Below the pieces are notes generated by a model. The model did no database searches. It was not told the DNA's origin and saw only the letters and a list, made by a program, of their open reading frames with translations. The translations under genes were made by a program, and so were the position numbers. This document shows, one piece after another, positions 13,173 through 54,974 of a stretch of 64,000 nt of DNA. Each line of letters opens with the position of its first letter. The first letter of the stretch is position 1. The stretch is from the NCBI GenBank assembly GCA_945898065.1, contig CAMDHH010000003.1, positions 1 through 64,000 of the forward strand, written 5' to 3'. Origin of the DNA: Bifidobacterium breve (GTDB lineage Bacteria > Actinomycetota > Actinomycetes > Nanopelagicales > Nanopelagicaceae).

Positions 13173-13955
13173 TTAGTTCTTATCCCAAAATTTTATAAGA
13201 ACATCAGTGAGTAACTCTGGAGTATCTTCATTAGGACAATGCCCAGCACCAGGGATTACATCTAATGGTGCTTCTAGGTCTATAGCCATTTGATCTTGCA
13301 ATGCCAGTGGCCATGCATCATCGTTTTCACCGTAGAGAACATGAGCTGAAATTCCTGTCTCATGTATCTCTTTCACAATTGATGGTTCATCCATTAGATG
13401 ATCTATATGAGTTGCAACTGAGCGAGGATCACTCATTGCCCATCGTCTCTTCTTCATCTCATACGTTGGCTTTCCTAAATCATTTGTATCCATGTAGTCA
13501 TCCCAAATCTTTTCCATGGGTACAGACCTCAACACTTCATGGCTCAGCATTTCTTCTCTAAAACCAATCCCTGCCGGACCAGTACACATCAGTGTGAGTG
13601 ACTTCCAATAATTTGGCGCCATAAGAACTGCGCGCTGTGCAACTAAACCACCAAATGAATGACCGAGTAAATGAGGATTTGTCATCCCAAGTAATTGCGC
13701 CATATCAATTGCATCACGTGCAAGTGATTTGATTGTGTATGCATCTTCTCGTTTGCTATGTGGAGACTCATGTTGTCCGCGATTATCTAGAGTCAATACG
13801 CGATAACCATGATCGGCAATCATTGGACCACAATCTGTAAAATCTTCTTTACTTCCAGTAAAGCCATGAACTAATACGACATCACCGCGATGAACCTTTG
13901 GCTCAAATACAACGGTTGCAATTGGTTCGCCTTGGACAACTATTAGTTTGGTCAT
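13173..13955 (-). CDS. Alpha/beta hydrolase
   Basis: 260-aa alpha/beta-hydrolase-fold enzyme. The triad is visible: nucleophile Ser in GHSFGG, Asp in GENDDAWPL, His in GAGHCPNED; the oxyanion-hole region is VHGFTGSKEDF. No signal peptide, so cytoplasmic. Convergent with the oxidoreductase (8 nt apart). Substrate unknown; 2-hydroxymuconate-semialdehyde-type or esterase activity would be a guess. Confidence 0.88.
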   Translation of the reverse strand: MTKLIVVQGEPIATVVFEPKVHRGDVVLVHGFTGSKEDFTDCGPMIADHGYRVLTLDNRGQHESPHSKREDAYTIKSLARDAIDMAQLLGMTNPHLLGHSFGGLVAQRAVLMAPNYWKSLTLMCTGPAGIGFREEMLSHEVLRSVPMEKIWDDYMDTNDLGKPTYEMKKRRWAMSDPRSVATHIDHLMDEPSIVKEIHETGISAHVLYGENDDAWPLALQDQMAIDLEAPLDVIPGAGHCPNEDTPELLTDVLIKFWDKN

Positions 13956-14045: not shown

Positions 14046-14118
14046 GCCCCGATAGCCCAATGGCAGAGGCAGAGGACTTAAAATCCTCCCAGTGTGGGTT
14101 CGACCCCCACTCGGGGCA
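14046..14118 (+). tRNA. tRNA with anticodon UAA (Leu?), short variable loop
   Basis: Folds by hand as a complete cloverleaf: acceptor GCCCCGA/TCGGGGC (14046-14052 with 14111-14117), D arm, anticodon stem GAGGA/TCCTC with loop CTTAAAA (anticodon TAA, 14079-14081), a 5-nt variable loop, T arm GTGGG-TTCGACC-CCCAC, discriminator A and no encoded CCA. UAA reads leucine UUA codons, but canonical tRNA-Leu has a long variable arm and this one does not. Fragments of its 3' half recur downstream (17335, 18725, 20010, 21170), so it acts or acted as an attachment site. Confidence 0.9.
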
Positions 14119-14256
14119 CTATCTGTGTGTAATTTATGACATTTACCTAACCGCTACACAAATATCCTATTAACAATGCATGGACAAAGGTCATGGAATC
14201 CCTAGAAATCTCAAGTTGCTCAAGGCGTGTAGCTAACTTAGGGTACGACTCAGTGG

Positions 14257-14293
14257 AGTCTCGAATCTGAGGTTTTGCCTTTACTTCGAGACT
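14257..14293. promoter_or_regulatory. 9-bp inverted repeat upstream of LRR gene
   Basis: Perfect inverted repeat AGTCTCGAA (14257-14265) and TTCGAGACT (14285-14293) with a 19-nt spacer, ending 15 nt before the ATG at 14309. It could be a leader hairpin or an operator. The rest of 14119-14308 holds no gene that I can see. Confidence 0.45.
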
Positions 14294-14308
14294 GAAAGAT
14301 TCATATAA

Positions 14309-16144
14309 ATGCTCAAGAGAATCATTAAAATATTCTTAGTAACAATTTTGGCACTCCCACAATTAGCAATTGTAAATCCTGCATGGGCTACAGACACCAC
14401 TTTCACTTGTGGAGACGGCGGCTATACATATACTGTAAACGCTACGGGCCATCTAACTCATGGGTCCTGTTCAGCCCCGTCATTAGTGCTTGATTCAAGT
14501 GTTGTATTCATCGATTATGCGAGCCTGAATGGCTGGCAAATAGAATCTTTAACTATTCCAGCGAGCGTTACAACAATCTCGGACGGTGCGTTCTATGGTC
14601 TTCCGAAATTAGAAACCATAACTGTCGATGCATCAAATACTAATTTCAAAACAGTCGGTGGCGTTCTAATGAATATTTCAGAAGATCGTATTATCTATTA
14701 TCCGAGTAAATTACCCTCACAAAATTACAATGTACCCAAAACTATTCTGAAGATAGATAATCGTGCATTTAGTTGTCTAACTTATCTTGAGGTAGTACAG
14801 ATAAACACTTATACAACGAATATCGACCCAGCATCTTTTATATCTTGTCCATACATTGCTTCCTCCTTACAAGAAATAAATGTTTTGACAGGAAACTCTT
14901 CCTATATTTCAATTGATCACGTACTTTATTCTGCAGATGGAAAAAATTTGTTGAATTTTCCAGCTAATTACCAGCAAAGAGATTATGTGGTGCCAAACGG
15001 AACGCTAACCATTGCAGGTAGTGCATTTGAGTACTCAAATATTCGAAGTATTACATTCCCAAGCTCTCTTACCACCATCGGTTCATATGCTTTCCAAAGT
15101 GCCAGAAGCCTTGAATCAGTCGGAGAATTTCCTGCCAGTTACACATATTCTGGAGCATCCTCACCTTTCTTTAATGCAGACAAAGTTACGAGTTTTACTG
15201 TCTCGGGCGATAACCTCTCATTCAAAAGTGTTGGGGGAGTTTTATTCTCGAAAAACGGAAGTAATCTTCGTGAATACCCGGGAGGAAAAGAGAGCACCGA
15301 ATACCGTATTCCAGATAGCGTGATTACGGTCGATGGTCAGGCCTTTGTAAATAATTATATAAAAACCCTCGTTGTGCCAAGTACTCTTACAACTCTTGGA
15401 TACTCCTATATTTCACTAGATTATTTGGTATTTAGTGGTACTAGTTCAGTATCTCAGATCGATGGTTACAATTTAGTTGATCGTTTCGTCTATTGTGGAA
15501 CCACAAACTCAGTTATAAATAGTTTTGCAACTGGCAGTGGTAAAATCGTAGAGTGCATAGATAGCTATTTTGTGGACGAGGCGGAAGTTGTGGCTGCAAG
15601 AGTGGCTGCGGCTGCAAGAGTGGCTGCGGAAGCTGCGGCTGCAAGAGTGGCTGTCGAGCTAGCTGCGGCAAAAGCGGCTAAAGAAAGACGTGAGGCAGAG
15701 AAGAAATCAGCGCGTAGTGAGATTTCAAGTAACGCTATCGTTGTGGAGAAATTATCTGTTGAAACATTTGATAAGGCAGAGATTCCAGGTATTACGGCTA
15801 AGAATATCGATGCAGTACAGGCAGAAATTCTGGCACTTCCTGCAGAGGCTCGAGCAGATATATCTCAAGTTCTAATGATTGCCCGCAAGTTTGAAGTAGT
15901 GGAGATTATTGCTTCGGATCGAATCAACTCCATTTCCTCGGCTCCTTTAGTTGAGATTGGTCTGATTCCAGAAGATAGCAAGTACAAGTCAACACTTGTT
16001 GCTGCACTGAGAAAATTGCCAGTAACGCAGCGCTCTGATCTCTCCTCTATCAAGACAGCGATTAATACAAAGTTGAAAGAGATTCAAGAAAGATTGGATC
16101 GCACGGCTGCAATAAGGGCGCGAATCCCTACACGTTTATCGTGA
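14309..16144 (+). CDS. Secreted BspA-like leucine-rich repeat protein
   Basis: 611-aa exported protein. Signal peptide MLKRIIKIFLVTILALPQ... with cleavage expected after AWA. Residues about 50-400 are LRR_5/BspA-type repeats (LTIPASVTTISDGAFYGLPKL, LTIAGSAFEYSNIRSITFP, FPSSLTTIGSYAFQ). Residues about 427-470 form a long Ala/Arg/Glu-rich helix with repeated AARVAAxAA units, followed by a helical C-terminal region. LRR_5 repeats often mediate surface binding; ligand unknown. Unlike its neighbours it lacks the CPxGYKKK tail and is not followed by a tRNA fragment. First cargo gene after the tRNA. Confidence 0.85.
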   Translation: MLKRIIKIFLVTILALPQLAIVNPAWATDTTFTCGDGGYTYTVNATGHLTHGSCSAPSLVLDSSVVFIDYASLNGWQIESLTIPASVTTISDGAFYGLPKLETITVDASNTNFKTVGGVLMNISEDRIIYYPSKLPSQNYNVPKTILKIDNRAFSCLTYLEVVQINTYTTNIDPASFISCPYIASSLQEINVLTGNSSYISIDHVLYSADGKNLLNFPANYQQRDYVVPNGTLTIAGSAFEYSNIRSITFPSSLTTIGSYAFQSARSLESVGEFPASYTYSGASSPFFNADKVTSFTVSGDNLSFKSVGGVLFSKNGSNLREYPGGKESTEYRIPDSVITVDGQAFVNNYIKTLVVPSTLTTLGYSYISLDYLVFSGTSSVSQIDGYNLVDRFVYCGTTNSVINSFATGSGKIVECIDSYFVDEAEVVAARVAAAARVAAEAAAARVAVELAAAKAAKERREAEKKSARSEISSNAIVVEKLSVETFDKAEIPGITAKNIDAVQAEILALPAEARADISQVLMIARKFEVVEIIASDRINSISSAPLVEIGLIPEDSKYKSTLVAALRKLPVTQRSDLSSIKTAINTKLKEIQERLDRTAAIRARIPTRLS

Positions 16145-16293
16145 GGCTCGAGCGAAGCTCGCACCCCCCTGCCTTTGCCATGAGGCAAGAGCAGATTCCC
16201 CGTTGTTATTTTTAGGTTATACGCCGGTGCTATAGCGCTAGAGATATTTTCAGAGGCATAAGATTCATTAGAAAGGTATTGCTCTAATCTCCT

Positions 16294-16322
16294 ACGTCTC
16301 ATACCCTCAAGTTGTGAGACGT
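16294..16322. promoter_or_regulatory. 8-bp inverted repeat across protease start codon
   Basis: ACGTCTCA (16294-16301) and TGAGACGT (16315-16322), spacer 13 nt, straddle the GTG start at 16314. As RNA this hairpin would bury the start codon; as DNA it could be an operator. The 169-nt gap 16145-16313 also has a small hairpin CGAGC-GAA-GCTCG near 16149-16161 without a T tract. Confidence 0.4.
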
Positions 16323-17336
16323 AAATTTATAACAACTGTTCTTTTATCAATACTTTTTATCCCTTCAATCTCTCCTGCCAATGCTGGCTTAGATGCACCG
16401 ATAAATCTTGATAATCCAAGAGTGGTGCCGATATATGGTGGCCCTTTTGATGCGGCCAGTTGGTCCGGTTATTTATACTCATCACGAATTGTATTTTCTG
16501 CTGCACACTCTACTTACAAATTTGATAGCAACGGTAATCGAATATTAAATGAACCAGATCAGATCACGGTGGGTAGACCAAATTCATCTGCCAAAGACTT
16601 TACTGGCAGAGTTAGGGTAATCAAAACATTTGTAGGCGACTACAAAATGTCAAAAGTGGGTGGTTTAAATGATTTTATTGTTTATGTCCTCGAAAAAGAC
16701 TTAGTTTCAATATCTAATGGAAAATTACTAACTGTAGATATCGAAAAAGAACTAGTAGCAGCTCAAACAGAGGTAAGTGCGCACGGATATGGCGAGTATC
16801 GAGGTCGTTGCGCCCCTGAAGAAACTCTTCCTTGCAAGAAAGATTGGAATAATCCAAATCAAAGGACTAGTGAACTTCCTCGATCACCAACGGGAAGTAT
16901 GAAATTAGTTGCACCATCTTATTTCCCTTGGCTGTATTCGGATCAAAAAGAAGCTTTATCAAATGAGACACTATTGTCAGATAACCTCGTTTGCTCAGGA
17001 GATTCCGGTGGTCCTATCACAGCGTTGCATGAGGGAGAATCAATTTATTTAGGTACAACACCTCTTGGATTTACTGAGGGCTATTTCTGTGGAGCAGGCA
17101 CCTCCAGGACTGCTTCTAGACCTTCGGGATATTTTTCACCTGTTCATAAACATTTAGATTTACTCAAAGAGGCAGAGGCGTTTGTGGCACAACAGAGTGC
17201 GTCTAGTGCCTCGAATAAAGAAACCGTCGTGACTCCTAATCTTAAGAAAACCGCCATTACCTGCATCAAAGGTAAGGTAACCAAAAAAGTAACCGCCGTT
17301 CGCCCTAAATGCCCTGCTGGTTATAAGAAGAAATAA
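16314..17336 (+). CDS. Secreted trypsin-like serine protease with CPxGYKKK tail
   Basis: 340-aa S1-family serine peptidase. Signal peptide MRRKFITTVLLSILFIPSIS, cleavage after ANA. Catalytic His in FSAAHS (residue 65), a candidate Asp in LNDFIVYVLEKDL, and Ser in VCSGDSGGPITAL (about residue 231), so all triad members appear present. Cysteines at RGRCAPE/LPCKK and VCSGD/YFCGAG could form disulfides. The last 30 residues are the shared tail with CIKGK, KKVTAV and CPAGYKKK. Start is GTG. Its stop codon TAA runs directly into a near-perfect copy of the tRNA 3' half. Confidence 0.85.
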   Translation: MRRKFITTVLLSILFIPSISPANAGLDAPINLDNPRVVPIYGGPFDAASWSGYLYSSRIVFSAAHSTYKFDSNGNRILNEPDQITVGRPNSSAKDFTGRVRVIKTFVGDYKMSKVGGLNDFIVYVLEKDLVSISNGKLLTVDIEKELVAAQTEVSAHGYGEYRGRCAPEETLPCKKDWNNPNQRTSELPRSPTGSMKLVAPSYFPWLYSDQKEALSNETLLSDNLVCSGDSGGPITALHEGESIYLGTTPLGFTEGYFCGAGTSRTASRPSGYFSPVHKHLDLLKEAEAFVAQQSASSASNKETVVTPNLKKTAITCIKGKVTKKVTAVRPKCPAGYKKK

Positions 17337-17372
17337 ATCCTCCCAGTGTGGGTTGGACCCCCACTCGGGGCA
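17335..17372 (+). repeat. tRNA 3'-half copy 1 (att-like)
   Basis: 38 nt matching tRNA positions 14081-14118 with one difference (C to G in the T loop, 17355). Starts within the stop codon of the protease gene and runs to the tRNA 3' end, including GGGGCA. The best preserved of the copies and the one nearest the intact tRNA. Confidence 0.92.
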
Positions 17373-17454
17373 TGACTTCATACCTTGAGTCTGCGCGCAG
17401 AATTCTTTGCGAATATCTGTTGCCGTCGGCATAAATAACCCCGAGAATCTCGGT

Positions 17455-18726
17455 ATGAAAGCAATGGGAAAAAGGGAACTTCTTAGCCGTCTAATTCTTG
17501 TTGCCGCATTAGCTATTTCTCCAATAGCGCCGGCCAGCGCCGCCGATCCTTTTCCAATGCCACCAGAACCAAAGTGGTGGAAACAGACTGGTCTAACCGA
17601 TATCCGTTATGGTCAATGGCTGCCTTGTCGCGATGAATGGCAGATTACAAACGATTGCATATCAGCGATTCACCTTTATAAATCAGATGGAACAGATGCA
17701 GGGGCCCTTACTTATCAGGTTCCGAAGGATTTCAAACCTAGTGAGGCTGTGCAATATTGGTTGATCTCAAATACTCCTCAAGGCGAACCTATTGAAAACT
17801 CTGCTTACGTAAAAGATGAAGTGGTCTCCATCTCCCATTGGAAATTACCAGCAGGAATAACAAATAGCGATGGCACGGATGTAGTCCATTCATATGTTCA
17901 CCTTATGAATGGTAGTTTGCAGATCAACACCATCGCATTCAGTCAAACTCAAGGCTCTCTTCCTGAAGGCTATTATTTTGAGTTTAAATTAAAAAGCAGT
18001 GGCTTTGCAAAAAAAATCAAGTGGGTGCTTTCTAATGTGCGCGATCCAGAGGTGAGTGTTGCTGGCGACATAATCACGGTAAAGGGACTTCCTGAAAATA
18101 GCCCGTCTGCAAACACTGGCGATCAAGTCTGCGAACAGAACTTACTTAAGGCCAGGTCTACCCAAAGAAATATCGCAGTAAATATGATTTATTACGATGC
18201 AGGTAATAAAACCGGTGAAACTCGCCCTGATGATGTGGTTCTCGGAACTAATGGTTGGTGGTGCCTGAGTGATTTCCGCTTTGATCGCGAGAGCCAGCAG
18301 ATCATTGTGAAAGTAGGCAATGTTCACTTTGATGAATTCGGTAACGAAATTCAAGGTTGGATGGAGTTAAAAGTTAAGGGCAATCGCGCTCGCGAATGGT
18401 GGGGAATCGATCCAGCTATTGCTGCCGGCTATGCCAAAGTAGAAGTTTCTTATCCAGATGGCACCAAAAAAGTGGCCACAGTCACCGCTAAATATGATTC
18501 GAAAAATGACTGGATCAATCTGCGCGCCTATGGCTTTACCTATTCGACGCCACAGTTGGCGATTAGCTTTAAACCTCCCGCTGAGGCTAACAAAGTGGTT
18601 CCGGCTGCTGAGGCTAAGAAGTTGGCTCCAGCTAAAAAAATGACGATTATCTGTGTGAAAGGTAAAGCAATTAAGAAAGTCAGTGCAGTGAAGCCAACAT
18701 GTCCTACTGGGTATAAAAAGAAATAA
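17455..18726 (+). CDS. Secreted protein of unknown function with CPxGYKKK tail
   Basis: 423 aa. Signal peptide with LILVAALAISPIAPASA, cleavage after ASA. No family recognised. Mature part is beta-rich with many Trp/Tyr (PPEPKWWKQTGLTDIRYGQWLPC), and residues about 335-375 (YPDGTKKVATVTA...LRAYGFTYSTPQL) match a segment of the next cassette protein, so the two are paralogs. The C-terminal 28 residues are the shared tail ending CPTGYKKK. An inverted repeat CCGAG-AAT-CTCGG (17441-17453) lies just before ATG 17455; ATG 17464 is an alternative start. Cargo of the tRNA array. Confidence 0.75.
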   Translation: MKAMGKRELLSRLILVAALAISPIAPASAADPFPMPPEPKWWKQTGLTDIRYGQWLPCRDEWQITNDCISAIHLYKSDGTDAGALTYQVPKDFKPSEAVQYWLISNTPQGEPIENSAYVKDEVVSISHWKLPAGITNSDGTDVVHSYVHLMNGSLQINTIAFSQTQGSLPEGYYFEFKLKSSGFAKKIKWVLSNVRDPEVSVAGDIITVKGLPENSPSANTGDQVCEQNLLKARSTQRNIAVNMIYYDAGNKTGETRPDDVVLGTNGWWCLSDFRFDRESQQIIVKVGNVHFDEFGNEIQGWMELKVKGNRAREWWGIDPAIAAGYAKVEVSYPDGTKKVATVTAKYDSKNDWINLRAYGFTYSTPQLAISFKPPAEANKVVPAAEAKKLAPAKKMTIICVKGKAIKKVSAVKPTCPTGYKKK

Positions 18727-18761
18727 ACCTCCGAGTGTGAGTTCGACCCCCACGCAGGGCA
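18725..18761 (+). repeat. tRNA 3'-half copy 2 (att-like)
   Basis: 37 nt aligned with tRNA 14081-14118: one single-base deletion (the T of AAATCC) and four substitutions by hand alignment. Begins inside the stop codon of the preceding tail-bearing gene. The T-base deletion is shared with copy 3. Confidence 0.85.
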
Positions 18762-18814
18762 GCATTACGGACTGTTTAGATATTTTAGACTGAATATGGA
18801 GCAGAATAGAAATC

Positions 18815-20011
18815 ATGAAGGCAATACTCATTAGCTTGCTTTGTGCAACCCTTACGTGCGCGTCTATTACCGAAGCTATCGCGAGTAAAGTTGAAATAGA
18901 TACTCCGGGGCAGTTTACGCTGCTCCCATGTGTCAACAAGTCTGACATAGACTGCATTGAGAGTTTTACTTATTCATATCCAAAAGTGGAAAGCACACCA
19001 GTCCAATTAGTCAAAAAAGCTTCAGGATCCACTCAAGATAAATTTGGACAGGATATTGAGAATTCCATGTCGGGCTGGTCTTTCATAGACAATCTTGGTT
19101 CAAGCAGAAGTTTCTCCACTGTGGCAACACTTAGTTCTGAAAAATACATGTCCCCGGCATACAATAAATTTTATCCAAGTTTATGGTTCTACATTTATGA
19201 TATGAAGCGCTTCGATGTCGAAGCGGGACTGAAGTTCCAAGTTATTTTTCGAACTTCTTGGTTGAAGCCAGTAAATGCGGCTGCATATGGTCGAAATGCG
19301 GACTTGGTTCAAAAAACAATTCAAGGTGGAAATACATTCACATTCACTGGCAGCCCCTTTCTATCAACTAGTTTTTTGGATTCAACCAAATACGGGCAAT
19401 TAGGCGAATCTGGATCTACTATGAAATCGGATTCGGAACATCCGACACTTTATTTTCTAATAGATCATGCAAGCAGTATTCCAAATGGTTCGATGTATGA
19501 CGCAAGGTGCGCGTATGCCGGGTACACCTTTGAATCAAGTAATGGAATCGCAGCGGGGCAACCCACCATGGATTCTCCAAATTCCCTAAATTTTGTCATT
19601 TACGCGCCACACTTTTTTTCAGACGGAACTCTTAATACTGGATTTTTTTCCGCTAATATCCACAAGGATTATTTGGACTGTATGTTTCCCGGAAATACCT
19701 TGACTAAATATCCAGAAATTGCAGTCTCAATTACCGATTCGGATGGAAGCAAGCAGGTCGCAACTACTAGCTCAACCATTCAAAACGGAATATATAAGAT
19801 CCGTGCTTCAGGATTTCATTTCAGTGCACCACGAATTGTTGTTACTGGAGTTGCTAGCAGTACACCCGCACCAGCACCGAGCGCATCAGCGAAATCAGAT
19901 TCGGCTCCCATGCTGGCCACTAAGAAAACTATCTCCTGTGTAAAGGGAAAAGTCGTCAAGAAGGTCACTGGTGCTAGCCCTAAATGTCCTACTGGATATA
20001 AAAAGAAATAA
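18815..20011 (+). CDS. Secreted protein of unknown function with CPxGYKKK tail (paralog)
   Basis: 398 aa. Signal peptide MKAILISLLCATLTCASITEA, cleavage after AIA. No known family seen. Residues about 300-345 (SITDSDGSKQVATTSS...IRASGFHFSAPRI) match the preceding cassette protein, preceded by a comparable acidic/aromatic region. A short Pro/Ala/Ser linker (STPAPAPSASAKS) precedes the tail ISCVKGK...CPTGYKKK. GGAG at about 18798 precedes ATG 18815. The stop codon again opens a tRNA fragment. Codon choice looks more AT-rich than the housekeeping genes, judged by eye. Confidence 0.75.
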   Translation: MKAILISLLCATLTCASITEAIASKVEIDTPGQFTLLPCVNKSDIDCIESFTYSYPKVESTPVQLVKKASGSTQDKFGQDIENSMSGWSFIDNLGSSRSFSTVATLSSEKYMSPAYNKFYPSLWFYIYDMKRFDVEAGLKFQVIFRTSWLKPVNAAAYGRNADLVQKTIQGGNTFTFTGSPFLSTSFLDSTKYGQLGESGSTMKSDSEHPTLYFLIDHASSIPNGSMYDARCAYAGYTFESSNGIAAGQPTMDSPNSLNFVIYAPHFFSDGTLNTGFFSANIHKDYLDCMFPGNTLTKYPEIAVSITDSDGSKQVATTSSTIQNGIYKIRASGFHFSAPRIVVTGVASSTPAPAPSASAKSDSAPMLATKKTISCVKGKVVKKVTGASPKCPTGYKKK

Positions 20012-20041
20012 ACCTCCCAGTCTGGGTTACCACTCGGGGCA
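20010..20041 (+). repeat. tRNA 3'-half copy 3 (att-like, eroded)
   Basis: 32 nt matching the tRNA 3' half with the same T deletion as copy 2, a 5-nt deletion in the T loop and stem region, and one substitution. Begins in the stop codon of the preceding gene and ends ACTCGGGGCA, like the tRNA 3' end. Confidence 0.82.
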
Positions 20042-20070
20042 CAACTGAACACCGACTTAGTTGATTTTAA

Positions 20071-21087
20071 TTAAAGAATAGAAGGATTAACTAAAATCTT
20101 TGGACCAACTCCTGCGCCTGCAGGTCGCTTGCCAAGGAAGACATCCCCAACTTCATCTAGTCCGATGGTTGCGCCAACAACGATTCGAGGATCGACACGA
20201 CCTGATTTAATAAAGTCAATTGAGTGTGGCAACCCAGGTGAACCAGAGAGAATTCCGATCGTTGTTATATCTTTGAAAACCAATTTTCGGGAATCAATAA
20301 GTGCAGAATTATTATCAAGACCGATCAATACAATTCGCCCACCCGGTTCGACTAGATCGACTAACTTTGCTGGAACTTCACGATCAAAAGTTGCATCAAT
20401 GACTACGTCATAGCCACCATCGACCTCGATCATCTTTTCACCAGCAGATTTGGCGCCAACTTCAATTGCCAACTTGATTGTCACGGGATCTTTTCCAACC
20501 ATGTGAACGGTAGCGCCCATTGCAATGCAAAATTGGGCACACATTAAGCCAATGGTTCCAGTGCCCCAAATTAAAATCTGCTTACCCGGCCCCGCTTGAG
20601 CGGCATCAGCCACTCGCCAAGCATTAGCTGCTGGTTCAACAAGTGCACCGATAGTGTCATCAAAAGATTCAGGGATCTCGTGTAAGAAGCGAGCAGGAAT
20701 TGCTAACTGTTCGGCGAGTGCACCACTCCAGCCATTTCGAATTCCAACTTCAAAGCGGGTAGCGCAAGTATGTTGGCGTCCAGTTGTGCAACGTTTGCAT
20801 TTACCGCAACCGAGCATGACATCACCAATAAAGCGACGTCCGATTAATTTGGCATCCACCCCTGCGCCAACACTGATAACTGCCCCAGTCCATTCGTGGC
20901 CAAGGCGCATCGGATACTTTGCTTGACCATCATGGAGGTAAGGCATCGAACCATTGAAGATTTCTACATCAGTTCCACATATACCGACGCGATTTACTCT
21001 AACTATCACTTCACCCGCTGAAGCAATGGGTGGCGCTACATCTTGTAATTCAAAGGTTTTTGGCGCCGTTACAACAAAGGCTTTCAT
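20071..21087 (-). CDS. Zinc-binding alcohol dehydrogenase family protein
   Basis: 338-aa medium-chain dehydrogenase, sorbitol/threonine-dehydrogenase-like. Catalytic zinc ligands in GICGTDVEIF and GHEWTG; structural-zinc cysteines in CGKCKRCTTGRQHTC; Rossmann nucleotide site GTGTIGLMCAQF. Substrate probably a polyol or sugar-derived alcohol, not decided by sequence. It sits between tRNA copy 3 and the pseudo-tRNA but on the opposite strand to the other cargo, so it may be cargo or an older resident gene. Confidence 0.88.
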   Translation of the reverse strand: MKAFVVTAPKTFELQDVAPPIASAGEVIVRVNRVGICGTDVEIFNGSMPYLHDGQAKYPMRLGHEWTGAVISVGAGVDAKLIGRRFIGDVMLGCGKCKRCTTGRQHTCATRFEVGIRNGWSGALAEQLAIPARFLHEIPESFDDTIGALVEPAANAWRVADAAQAGPGKQILIWGTGTIGLMCAQFCIAMGATVHMVGKDPVTIKLAIEVGAKSAGEKMIEVDGGYDVVIDATFDREVPAKLVDLVEPGGRIVLIGLDNNSALIDSRKLVFKDITTIGILSGSPGLPHSIDFIKSGRVDPRIVVGATIGLDEVGDVFLGKRPAGAGVGPKILVNPSIL

Positions 21088-21169
21088 AGTGCTGCAATCT
21101 TATTTGATAGTAATTGCAAAATGGAAGTACTACGGATTAGTTATAAATCCTTTGTGATAGATGGAAACG

Positions 21170-21242
21170 GCCTGCATAGTCCAATAGCAGTGGCAGAAGA
21201 GTCAAAATCCTCCCAGTGTTGATTTGACCCCTACTCAAGGTG
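21170..21242 (+). pseudogene. Degenerate full-length copy of the UAA tRNA
   Basis: Aligns end to end with 14046-14118; about three quarters of positions match by hand, with the AAAATCCTCCCAGTGT block intact. The acceptor stem has lost pairing near positions 5-6 and the anticodon loop has changed to GTCAAAA, so a working tRNA is unlikely. Marks the distal edge of the array. Nothing else is visible in 21088-21272. Confidence 0.8.
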
Positions 21243-21272
21243 CCTATATTTACAAAGTAGACTATTTCAATC

Positions 21273-22823
21273 ATGAGTCAAAAATATGATGTTGTAATTA
21301 TTGGCGGTGGCCATAACGGTCTTGTTGCTGCATGCTATTTAGCGATGGCAAAGAAGAAAGTAATTATTCTCGAAGCCAACGCCGAACTTGGTGGAGCAAC
21401 AGCAAGTATTCAAGCCTTTGATGGCATGGATGTGCGAATCTCTCGATACTCATATTTAGTCTCACTTTTACCTGATCAAATCCTTGAGGATCTCTCTATA
21501 GATTTCGAAACAATAAGTCGCAAGGTTTCATCCTTTACACCAGCTAAACGTAACGGCCTCGATGTTGGACTCATGGTCAATCGCCAATTAGATACAGATA
21601 CCAAATATTCATTTGTCGCACTTACGGGAAATGATGCCGAATATAAGGCCTGGGATTCTTTTTATTCGCAGCTTTACGAACTTGCCCAAGTGATGGCACC
21701 AACAATGCTCAAGCCTTTGTTGACTAAGGCGCAGATGAAGAAGATTGCAGTAGATAAGGGTTTATCTCATATTTGGGATGCAATTATGGAAAGACCTTTG
21801 AGTGAAGTAATCGAGAGCACTTTCGCCGATGATTTGGTGCAGGGCGTTGTTCTTACCGATGGACTTATTGGAACCTTTACTCCATCCAATCACATGATGG
21901 CAAATATTTGTTTTCTCTATCACCTCATCGGAAACGGTACTGGTGAGTGGAAAGTACCAGTGGGTGGAATGGGGGCATTCGTAAAGAAACTAACTACGCG
22001 TGCTACCGAATTAGGTGTTGAGATTAGAACTGATGCCAAGGTTATAAAGATTGGTGATGATTCGGTAGGAAAAACTATTCAGATTGAGAGTGGAGAGGTT
22101 TTCCATTCGGAATTTATTGCCGCAAATTGTGCCCCTCAAGTACTTGCAAAGATTCTTGGAAGGCCAGCGCCACAGAATGTAAAGGGCTCACAGCTGAAGG
22201 TAAATATGCTGCTCAAGAAATTACCAAGACTAAAAAGTGGTGCAGATCCTGTATCAGCCTTTGCGGGAACTTTCCATATTGATGAGAGCTACGCACAATG
22301 TGAGACTGCTTATCAAGAAGCTGCAGCAGGCAAGATTCCAACTGTTATCCCAGCAGAGATGTATTGCCACACGCTTACCGATCAGAGCATTCTTGGTGAA
22401 TCTCTACGGGAGCAGGGATATCAAACCCTGACACTCTTTGCACTCCACACTCCTGCAGATTTATTTGAAAAAGATAATGAGGGAGTCAAGGCTGAGATGC
22501 TTCGTCGAATATTGAAACAACTCAATGAGTATTTGGTTGATCCAATTGAGGATTGTTTAGCAGTTGATATTCATGGAGAACTTTGTGTTGAAGTGAAGTC
22601 ACCACAAGATTTAGAAAAAGATGTTGCACTTCCTGGTGGAAACATTTTCCATACCGACTTGCACTTTCCTTTTAGCGATGATGCGCAGGTCACCTCGGCT
22701 AATCGCTGGGGGGTTGAAACGGGGGATGCCAAGATCTTTATCTGTGGTGCAGGTGCGCTCCGAGGCGGTGGCGTCAGCGGTATAGGTGGGCACAACGCTG
22801 CAATGGCCATTCTGGGCCGCTAG
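21273..22823 (+). CDS. Phytoene-dehydrogenase-like FAD oxidoreductase
   Basis: 516-aa flavoprotein of the CrtI/amine-oxidase superfamily. N-terminal dinucleotide site YDVVIIGGGHNGLVAACYLA with VIILEANAELGGA; C-terminal FAD signature FICGAGALRGGGVSGIGGHNAAMA. No other carotenoid genes lie nearby, so a role in carotenoid desaturation is not supported by context; members of the COG1233 group have varied or unknown substrates. ATG 21273, just after the array edge. Confidence 0.85.
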   Translation: MSQKYDVVIIGGGHNGLVAACYLAMAKKKVIILEANAELGGATASIQAFDGMDVRISRYSYLVSLLPDQILEDLSIDFETISRKVSSFTPAKRNGLDVGLMVNRQLDTDTKYSFVALTGNDAEYKAWDSFYSQLYELAQVMAPTMLKPLLTKAQMKKIAVDKGLSHIWDAIMERPLSEVIESTFADDLVQGVVLTDGLIGTFTPSNHMMANICFLYHLIGNGTGEWKVPVGGMGAFVKKLTTRATELGVEIRTDAKVIKIGDDSVGKTIQIESGEVFHSEFIAANCAPQVLAKILGRPAPQNVKGSQLKVNMLLKKLPRLKSGADPVSAFAGTFHIDESYAQCETAYQEAAAGKIPTVIPAEMYCHTLTDQSILGESLREQGYQTLTLFALHTPADLFEKDNEGVKAEMLRRILKQLNEYLVDPIEDCLAVDIHGELCVEVKSPQDLEKDVALPGGNIFHTDLHFPFSDDAQVTSANRWGVETGDAKIFICGAGALRGGGVSGIGGHNAAMAILGR

Positions 22824-53777: not shown

Positions 53778-54974
53778 ATGAGAGTTATCAAGAAGTACCT
53801 AATTGTGATACTCACGTTTAGTTTAATTTCCTTGAACCTACCATCTGCTTTTGCTGCTGAGACTGTTTCTAATATCCAGATAAGTAAAGCAGATGCTGTT
53901 CCTGGAGAATTATTAATAATAACTGCTGATATTTCATCTCCAAGTGGTGTTGATTATGTAAATATGCTCATATATCCGCCAAGTGGTGGAAGCAAAGGAT
54001 TCAGCACCTATTTTCGACTGATTTCAGGAACAGAACAGCAAGGAACATGGAGTATGAATTTCAATATTCCCTCTACGGCAGAAAATGGAACTTGGAAAGT
54101 AGTTGTTGGTCTGGGCACAAAAGATCAAACATCTAAAATTGGTTATGGCCCTTCAATAAATGTCTCCGGATCTACCGTTGTTGAAACTAAAGTTTCGAAT
54201 GTGAGACTTTCTAAAACCAATGCTAGAGCGGGAGAAGAACTGACAGCGTTTGCAGATATTTCGTCTCCTACTGGTGTTGAATATGTAAATATGATCATAT
54301 ATCCGCCAAGTGGTGGAAGCAAAGGTTTTAGTACTTATTTTCAATTGATATCTGGAACTGAACAGCAGGGAACGTGGAGTATGAAATTTAGTATTCCGCT
54401 ATCTGGCGAAAATGGTGATTGGAAGTTTGTTGTTGGCCTGGGCACAAAAGATCAAACATCTAAAATTGGTTATGGCCCCTCAATAAAAGTAAGTACTGCA
54501 GCATCTGAAGCAGCAGATAAAGCCGCAGCAGATAAAGCTGCAGCAGATAAAGCTGCAGCAGATAAAGCCGCAGCAGATAAAGCCGCAGCAGATACGTTCA
54601 ATGGCTTAGTCAGTACAATAAATAAATACAAAAGTGAAATCTCGAATCTTTTTATGGGCTTTCCAGGATATTTCCAACAAAATCCAGAAATTAAGTCTTC
54701 ACTTCAGCAAGCGCTGGATTATGTTATTCCTACTACTCCCTCCATTGCTGACATTGAATTTATGAATGACCTAATTGCAGGAGGGATTGGCAAGAAAGCA
54801 TTAGCTTCGGATGTCTTGTTAGCACAACTTGGTATCACTAAATATCAAGCATTAGAAAAAATAAAATCTAAGACTGTGAAAAAAATTACGACAGTAACCT
54901 GCGCTAGAGGAAAGACAGTCAAAAAAGTCTCTGCCGTGAATCCCAGGTGTCCTACTGGATATAAGAAAAGGTAG
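53778..54974 (+). CDS. Secreted two-repeat protein with CPxGYKKR tail
   Basis: 398 aa. Signal peptide with LIVILTFSLISLNLPSAFA, cleavage after AFA. Two near-identical repeats of about 95-110 residues (VSNIQISKADAVPGELL... and VSNVRLSKTNARAGEEL..., both with SGTEQQGTWSM and VVGLGTKDQTSKIGYGPSI), Ig- or invasin-like in pattern. Then a (AADKA)n helix of about 5-6 units, a helical domain, and the same cationic tail as the tRNA-array proteins (CARGK, KKVSAV, CPTGYKKR). No tRNA fragment follows it. RBS AGGAG before ATG 53778. Binding or surface role is inferred. Confidence 0.78.
   Translation: MRVIKKYLIVILTFSLISLNLPSAFAAETVSNIQISKADAVPGELLIITADISSPSGVDYVNMLIYPPSGGSKGFSTYFRLISGTEQQGTWSMNFNIPSTAENGTWKVVVGLGTKDQTSKIGYGPSINVSGSTVVETKVSNVRLSKTNARAGEELTAFADISSPTGVEYVNMIIYPPSGGSKGFSTYFQLISGTEQQGTWSMKFSIPLSGENGDWKFVVGLGTKDQTSKIGYGPSIKVSTAASEAADKAAADKAAADKAAADKAAADKAAADTFNGLVSTINKYKSEISNLFMGFPGYFQQNPEIKSSLQQALDYVIPTTPSIADIEFMNDLIAGGIGKKALASDVLLAQLGITKYQALEKIKSKTVKKITTVTCARGKTVKKVSAVNPRCPTGYKKR
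54510..54594 (+). repeat. 15-bp tandem repeat encoding ADKAA
   Basis: About 5-6 tandem 15-bp units of GCAGATAAAGC(T/C)GCA type inside the secreted protein gene, nearly identical at DNA level, differing mainly by C/T at one wobble site. Length variation by slippage would keep the frame. Confidence 0.85.

Follow-up and report, generated by a model that had tools for sequence, protein, structure and literature searches.

The stretch analysed here, referred to as the window, comprises 64,000 nucleotides (positions 1 to 64,000 of contig CAMDHH010000003.1, assembly GCA_945898065.1) from the 85% complete genome of a freshwater member of Candidatus Planktophila (acI lineage, Nanopelagicales). Downstream of its tRNA-Leu(UAA) gene lies an array of genes for secreted proteins, interspersed with displaced copies of the same tRNA. 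An earlier note on this DNA had listed an intact tRNA, three 3' halves and a degenerate full-length copy, and these were borne out when alignment scores were compared with those of shuffled sequence:

14046-14119, + strand: intact tRNA-Leu(UAA), the integration target (ARAGORN; relatives have the orthologous tRNA in this position)
17334-17372, + strand: displaced tRNA-Leu 3' half no. 1, of the youngest insert (local alignment to the intact tRNA)
18724-18761, + strand: displaced tRNA-Leu 3' half no. 2 (local alignment to the intact tRNA)
20009-20042, + strand: displaced tRNA-Leu 3' half no. 3, internally deleted (local alignment)
21169-21243, + strand: degenerate full-length tRNA-Leu copy, the right boundary of the island (local alignment; flank match to empty sites)

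As a measure of chance, the tRNA 3' half was aligned to 200 shuffles of the insert and scored at most 16.7, far below all four copies (24.8 to 41.7). Copy 1 aligned over 17326-17372 with 43/47 identities and 1 gap (core 36/37; score 37), copy 2 over 18724-18761 with 34/38 and 2 gap columns (score 27.7), copy 3 over 20009-20042 with 33/34 and 7 gap columns (score 24.8), and the degenerate copy, recognisable from 21169, over 21176-21243 with 55/66 (score 41.7). Divergence from the intact tRNA grew with distance from it, which suggests that insertion always took place beside the tRNA and pushed older scars outward. The 3' half of the intact tRNA is the one restored by the youngest insert. When the window was scanned with 33 distinct tRNA sequences, taken from the host genome and from the loci of relatives, partial copies were found for tRNA-Leu(UAA) alone, all on one strand and within 7.1 kb; no fragments of the other tRNAs scanned were seen. 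Across the host's own genome, 14046-14119 was the only full-length match to this tRNA.

The genes flanking and separating these copies are as follows:

13173-13955, - strand: alpha/beta hydrolase gene, left flank (conserved beside the tRNA in relatives G003 and G005)
14309-16144, + strand: secreted BspA-type leucine-rich-repeat (LRR) protein, cargo (Pfam LRR_5, 1.5e-26; family F27)
16314-17336, + strand: secreted trypsin-like serine protease with the tail ...CIKGKVTKKVTAVRPKCPAGYKKK, cargo (Pfam Trypsin, 5e-4, just under the cut-off; family F34)
17455-18726, + strand: secreted protein of family F21 with the tail, cargo (family comparison across relatives)
18815-20011, + strand: secreted beta-rich protein with the tail, cargo (structure model, predicted local distance difference test score, pLDDT, 77)
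20071-21087, - strand: zinc alcohol dehydrogenase, cargo of the oldest insert (Pfam ADH_N, 2.5e-23; family F24)
21273-22823, + strand: FAD-dependent desaturase-like gene, right flank (directly after the tRNA in G003 and G005)

As had been noticed before, the three partial copies start at the stop codons of same-strand genes for exported proteins (16314-17336, 17455-18726 and 18815-20011). In copies 2 and 3 the stop codon TAA is aligned with the anticodon TAA, and in the relative G102 the anticodon is exactly the stop codon (AAG CCT TAA AAT). The description of a serial array in which each gene is capped by a fragment holds for these three genes; it does not hold for the LRR gene, which ends without a tRNA fragment, and it had missed the alcohol dehydrogenase gene, which sits between copy 3 and the degenerate full copy. 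The first unit comprises two genes (LRR and protease). Since the LRR gene carries neither fragment nor C-terminal tail, while members of its family F27 are tailed in G104, G079, G090 and G131, a deletion probably fused two units at its end.

The locus was compared across 51 distinct genomes in which both flanks lay on one contig (one genome appeared twice in the output). The conserved order was eno, two small genes, a ppx/gppA-like gene, tRNA-Leu and a Bax-inhibitor-like gene (names by sequence recognition). Between the last two, 20/51 genomes were empty (37-161 bp) and 31/51 were filled (0.8-9.9 kb) with differing cargo. Among the filled loci, those of G003 and G005, the two genomes whose flanking genes are closest to the window's, contain the desaturase-like gene alone, which the window has too: both flanks are common and the whole insert is absent. 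The degenerate full copy occupies the position of their intact tRNA, and 3' of it the flank matches their empty sites. Other inserts were resolved with the same precision. In G086, a single gene separates the tRNA from a fragment that starts at nt 23, beyond which comes the sequence of the empty site of G072, and the single-gene insert of G092 is likewise matched by the empty site of G112. The simplest array, that of G127, runs from the tRNA through a left block and a protease-tail gene to core 32-74, 4 nt beyond the gene, and on to the next left block. Gene ends lay 0-11 nt from the core in several unrelated cases (three in the window, and G102, G103, G074, G002, G127 and G022). Altogether, tRNA 3' fragments were found in 14 filled loci, one of which (1/14) has an integrase. 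Gene number and kind thus differed at the exact site, and breakpoints coincided with the tRNA fragments; neither the identical gene order nor the mismatched breakpoints that the earlier note had named as contrary outcomes were found. Some relatives' contigs end within a few bases of tRNA-Leu, as would be expected for variable sites.

A tyrosine recombinase was sought beside the same tRNA in relatives, as had been suggested, and was found in G087, G094, G146 and L284. This integrase family, F43 (PF00589, 3e-25; phrog_1, 9e-62), occurs in five genomes at >40% identity, plus further named records. In each of these four cases its gene lies directly before a tRNA-Leu fragment, and the repeat begins where the anticodon stem does, at tRNA nt 26-27. 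Integrases of this kind usually cross over in the anticodon loop. The F43 elements span 7-13 kb, and their hosts include P. versatilis MMS-IA-79 (G087, NZ_CP016774.1), IMCC26103 (G126, CP015604.1) and metagenome-assembled genomes. G157 provides an exact empty site for the 7.9-kb element of G087, with 100% identity over tRNA 1-74 and 99.7% over 1,639 bp from the fragment on. The G087 element also encodes replication-initiator-like and HNH-like proteins, and so appears to resemble a phage satellite. Relatives of F43 stand beside tRNA-Tyr, tRNA-Arg and tRNA-Lys genes or fragments (L188, L276, L279, L282, L200, L201, L488); the family has therefore switched targets. PF00589 proteins as such occur in nearly all of 101 genomes, mostly two and of XerC/XerD length. 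The complete genomes G120 and G090, which have tail genes at the tRNA, encode exactly two tyrosine recombinases, again of XerC/XerD length, and the window's own genome has one PF00589 match, away from the array.

Within G126 (L189:6247-19249, reverse complement), a 12.9-kb integrase element is flanked by two full tRNA-Leu(UAA) genes of different alleles, illustrating how a full tRNA copy can arise, from an element carrying a whole tRNA. The degenerate copy in the window has the T of the allele of G126's second tRNA (AGTCC). A viral carrier of the corresponding phage attachment site (attP) was also considered and rejected, as neither the exact 42-nt attP pattern nor the left-end arm pattern had any match (0 each) in the viral contigs of IMG/VR. 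A degenerate pattern retrieved 112 IMG/VR contigs with tRNA-Leu(UAA)-like sequence; of the 80 checked (L345-L424), 79 carried full tRNA-Leu genes and the remaining one had its match at the contig end.

At their left ends, small units of relatives resemble the integrase elements. A 330-nt profile built from the left ends of G087 and G146 matched the tRNA 3' end of nine other elements (E 8e-66 to 2e-28), seven of them without an integrase in the available sequence (several of the seven on incomplete contigs) and the other two, in G029 and G083, cut off soon after the block. Integrase-less cassettes of one to three genes in relatives have the same left end as integrase elements. Examples of the block are L101:3106-3398, L169:116-403 and L120:3113-3390, and the window holds a remnant 5' of the protease gene:

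16082-16254, + strand: left-end block remnant (matched by nhmmer over 16146-16254, E=4e-7, and by covariance model R1 over 16082-16212, E=2e-7)

Direct repeats of the type GCATACACAATGCATACAC were listed at 13 places in 1.01 Mb, with one place entered twice. One, in the same orientation, lies between the G087 integrase and the core, and every other one immediately 3' of a tRNA-Leu; they look like arm-type integrase sites. The block forms a hairpin with compensatory changes (21 cells, reached in 0/500 shuffles), and in a sliding control 84.7% was paired at the hairpin versus 43.2% at best elsewhere. It also holds an antisense copy of tRNA-Leu nt 8-31 (D-arm, 24 nt), which matches at 18-24 of 24 positions in 16 elements and at 13 (ungapped) in one, compared with at most 17 for random sequence. 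The fit to the allele of the element's own host was better in 12/16, equal in 3/16 and worse in 1/16, a bias that shared ancestry within clades could explain. Genus-wide, most strong covariance-model matches of the block adjoin tRNA-Leu; further ones lie 5' of tail genes, at tRNA-Arg in G104 and at tRNA-Lys in G119, where an integrase is present. A known RNA family was considered for the block and rejected, as no Rfam family matched.

The C-terminal tail shared by three of the cargo proteins, CxKGKxxKKVTxxxPxCPxGYKKK, ends many secreted proteins, with 15 matches in the window's own genome, one of them at 54891-54974 of the window, and >100 in the genus. No Pfam model covers it in the window proteins, and it may serve in cell-surface sorting or anchoring. 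Gene and tRNA fragment had been taken to form one unit, a view that this genus-wide distribution does not support: a tRNA-Leu fragment follows only 7/98 sampled tail genes, and the join of tail and tRNA therefore belongs to compact cassette ends at this site, not to the tail. For the same reason, tail-coding DNA was ruled out as an attachment (att) site, 91/98 tail genes being without the fragment. The protein encoded at 18815-20011 belongs to a large, genus-wide paralogous family (36/135 genomes, up to 13 per genome); its model gave no usable fold match in PDB (template modelling score, TM, under 0.2), and the two beta-rich or unclassified cargo proteins had no family above any cut-off in Pfam, NCBIfam or PHROGs. 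The protease family F34 is also found at this locus in G001, G125 and G127, and F24, that of the alcohol dehydrogenase, occurs in G036 and G126 just ahead of a tRNA-Leu fragment. Another class of cargo at the locus ends in codons for RPIRAF or a variant (L105 in G115, L121 in G103, L180 in G074, L177 in G118), and this gene end lies directly 5' of the tRNA fragment in G115, G103 and G074. In G005, a 58-nt, 91% copy of tRNA-Val(AAC) nt 18-75 was found near tail genes (L049:10516-10573), which suggests that tRNA-Val(AAC) is a second hotspot of the same kind.

Taken together, these data make it likely that the array is an additive genomic island at tRNA-Leu(UAA), built by serial site-specific integration of small units. 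A tyrosine recombinase would have inserted at least four small DNA units successively into the tRNA anticodon stem-loop; each would have carried its own 3' half, rebuilding the tRNA and shifting the previous 3' half downstream, and hence every unit would close in a half-tRNA. Being without an integrase, the window units would have been integrated by the enzyme of another F43-family element, in trans or while adjacent to it, and the secreted surface-protein cargo would be what selection retains. What is directly observed in this account is the target with its exact junctions, the existence of empty sites, an order readable from fragment decay, and a cognate integrase at the same tRNA in relatives. 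As in tRNA-borne islands, there is an intact tRNA at one end and a displaced 3' fragment at the other, and precise empty sites exist for the window (G003 and G005) and for relatives' inserts (G072, G112 and G157). Unlike the elements of G087, G146, G094 and G126 at this tRNA, the window island encodes no integrase beside its att site. As in non-autonomous islands, the att-bounded units of the window, and those at 13/14 fragment-bearing loci, lack both integrase and transfer genes. That such units are moved in trans is plausible.

Several observations weigh against this account. The window's own genome is 85% complete, so an integrase could lie in its unassembled part. The window's left-end block is a remnant only, and its own unit starts show no clear arm repeats. 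A profile of the right-arm region of the integrase elements had no match in the tail-gene cassettes, and a weak right-end trace (E=0.008) survives in the single-gene insert of G086 alone. Finally, no movement, circle or attP was seen, nor was such an attP present in the viral contigs.

The foremost alternative, which we regard as possible though clearly the less probable, is that the units are decayed remnants: full integrase elements integrated, and streamlining deletions left a surface gene and tRNA scars, with no need for mobilisation in trans. In G146 the tail gene comes right after the left end and the integrase lies at the right end, such that one internal deletion would yield a G127-like cassette; G086 keeps its right-end trace without an integrase; and deletions do occur here, since the window's LRR gene is missing its tail and the next block its start. 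Random deletions, however, would often leave arm sequence or gene debris, whereas gene ends fall within the 0-11 nt described above in several unrelated cases, and an integrase is absent from all but one of the fragment-bearing loci. Decay of larger elements can nonetheless give much of the same picture as small cassettes moved in trans. A further reading is a genuine Planktophila single-gene cassette system on an essential tRNA, in which a satellite-borne integrase would mobilise, in trans, integrase-less cassettes with a shared hairpin and antisense left end, and these would accumulate as a surface-protein array. We consider this rather unlikely; if it is true, the role of the structured left end, with its complementarity to the tRNA, would be to recognise the target, to regulate or to sense tRNA.

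Tandem duplication with homologous recombination between gene tails and tRNA pieces, after one initial event, would account for the 93-nt stretch (tail plus tRNA fragment) that is present three times and would suit the large paralogous family formed by the tail genes. It is nevertheless very improbable, as the proteins differ 5' of the tail (LRR, protease, two beta-rich), fragment divergence increases away from the tRNA, and relatives have single inserts with exact empty sites and differing cargo, which largely refutes it for the locus as a whole. That the halves are kept as functional mRNA 3' ends (a hairpin or processing signal) rather than as integration scars is hardly credible, for although they lie directly at stop codons on the coding strand, they decay (the deletions of copy 3), most tail genes do without them, and the gene ahead of the fragment lies on the other strand in G092 and G036.

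The acI actinobacteria rank with the most abundant cells of fresh water, and their genomes are very small. To the question of how they keep their surface genes diverse, the tRNA-Leu(UAA) locus gives a testable answer, with a defined bacterial attachment site (attB), a candidate integrase, putative arm sites and exact empty sites; the genomes that bear the system include some from cultures or isolates (P. versatilis MMS-IA-79 and IMCC26103). Through their tRNA scars, inserts of one to three genes without a recombinase become readable as site-specific events, and such inserts can therefore be counted in other streamlined genomes. The tiny recombinase-free inserts, with a matching enzyme in relatives, make the locus a good model for gene swapping in streamlined bacteria.

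The earlier note had regarded it as unusual that the fragments are only one or two genes apart and that no recombinase is present. The window array indeed has no recombinase gene, but this arrangement is known from non-autonomous or additive tandem islands (PMC3146451, PMC10872708). At the ssrA gene of Dehalococcoides, tandem islands comprise 16 with an integration module and 15 without, the latter suggested to be cis-mobilizable; as here, several follow one another 3' of a single RNA gene, whose 3'-end repeat delimits each of them (PMC3146451). Those islands are larger and use a tmRNA and serine recombinases, whereas the Planktophila locus combines tRNA-Leu, a tyrosine integrase, inserts of one to three genes and a structured left end. 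In fGI1 of Ca. Actinomarinales, also streamlined planktonic actinobacteria, small cassettes are added at tRNAs and end in a repeated piece of the tRNA; the cargo concerns envelope sugars, other tRNAs are used, and the accessible part of that paper describes no integrase or att arms (PMC7771536). In the additive island fGI-2 of Ca. Methylopumilus, the final 20 nt of tRNA-Lys recur and the inserts are tiny, from 330 bp and one gene upward; it differs in belonging to Proteobacteria and in its shorter repeats, and no integrase is assigned to it in the accessible part of the source (PMC10872708). Tycheposons, described there as 4-200 kb cargo elements at a tRNA with a tyrosine recombinase (PMC10872708), are approached more closely by the G087 and G146 elements than by the window units, which measure about 1-3.3 kb and have no recombinase. 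Integron cassettes likewise form arrays of single-gene units with a recombination site at the gene 3' end. The Planktophila array, by contrast, has no integron integrase beside it, its boundaries are tRNA-Leu 3' halves, scars of an essential gene, and accretion starts at the tRNA. No description of a Planktophila tRNA-Leu system was found in the open literature searched, which did not include the main acI microdiversity paper. In kind, tRNA integration and accretion are known; the unusual details are the tiny integrase-less units, the identifiable cognate integrase and the tRNA-complementary left end.

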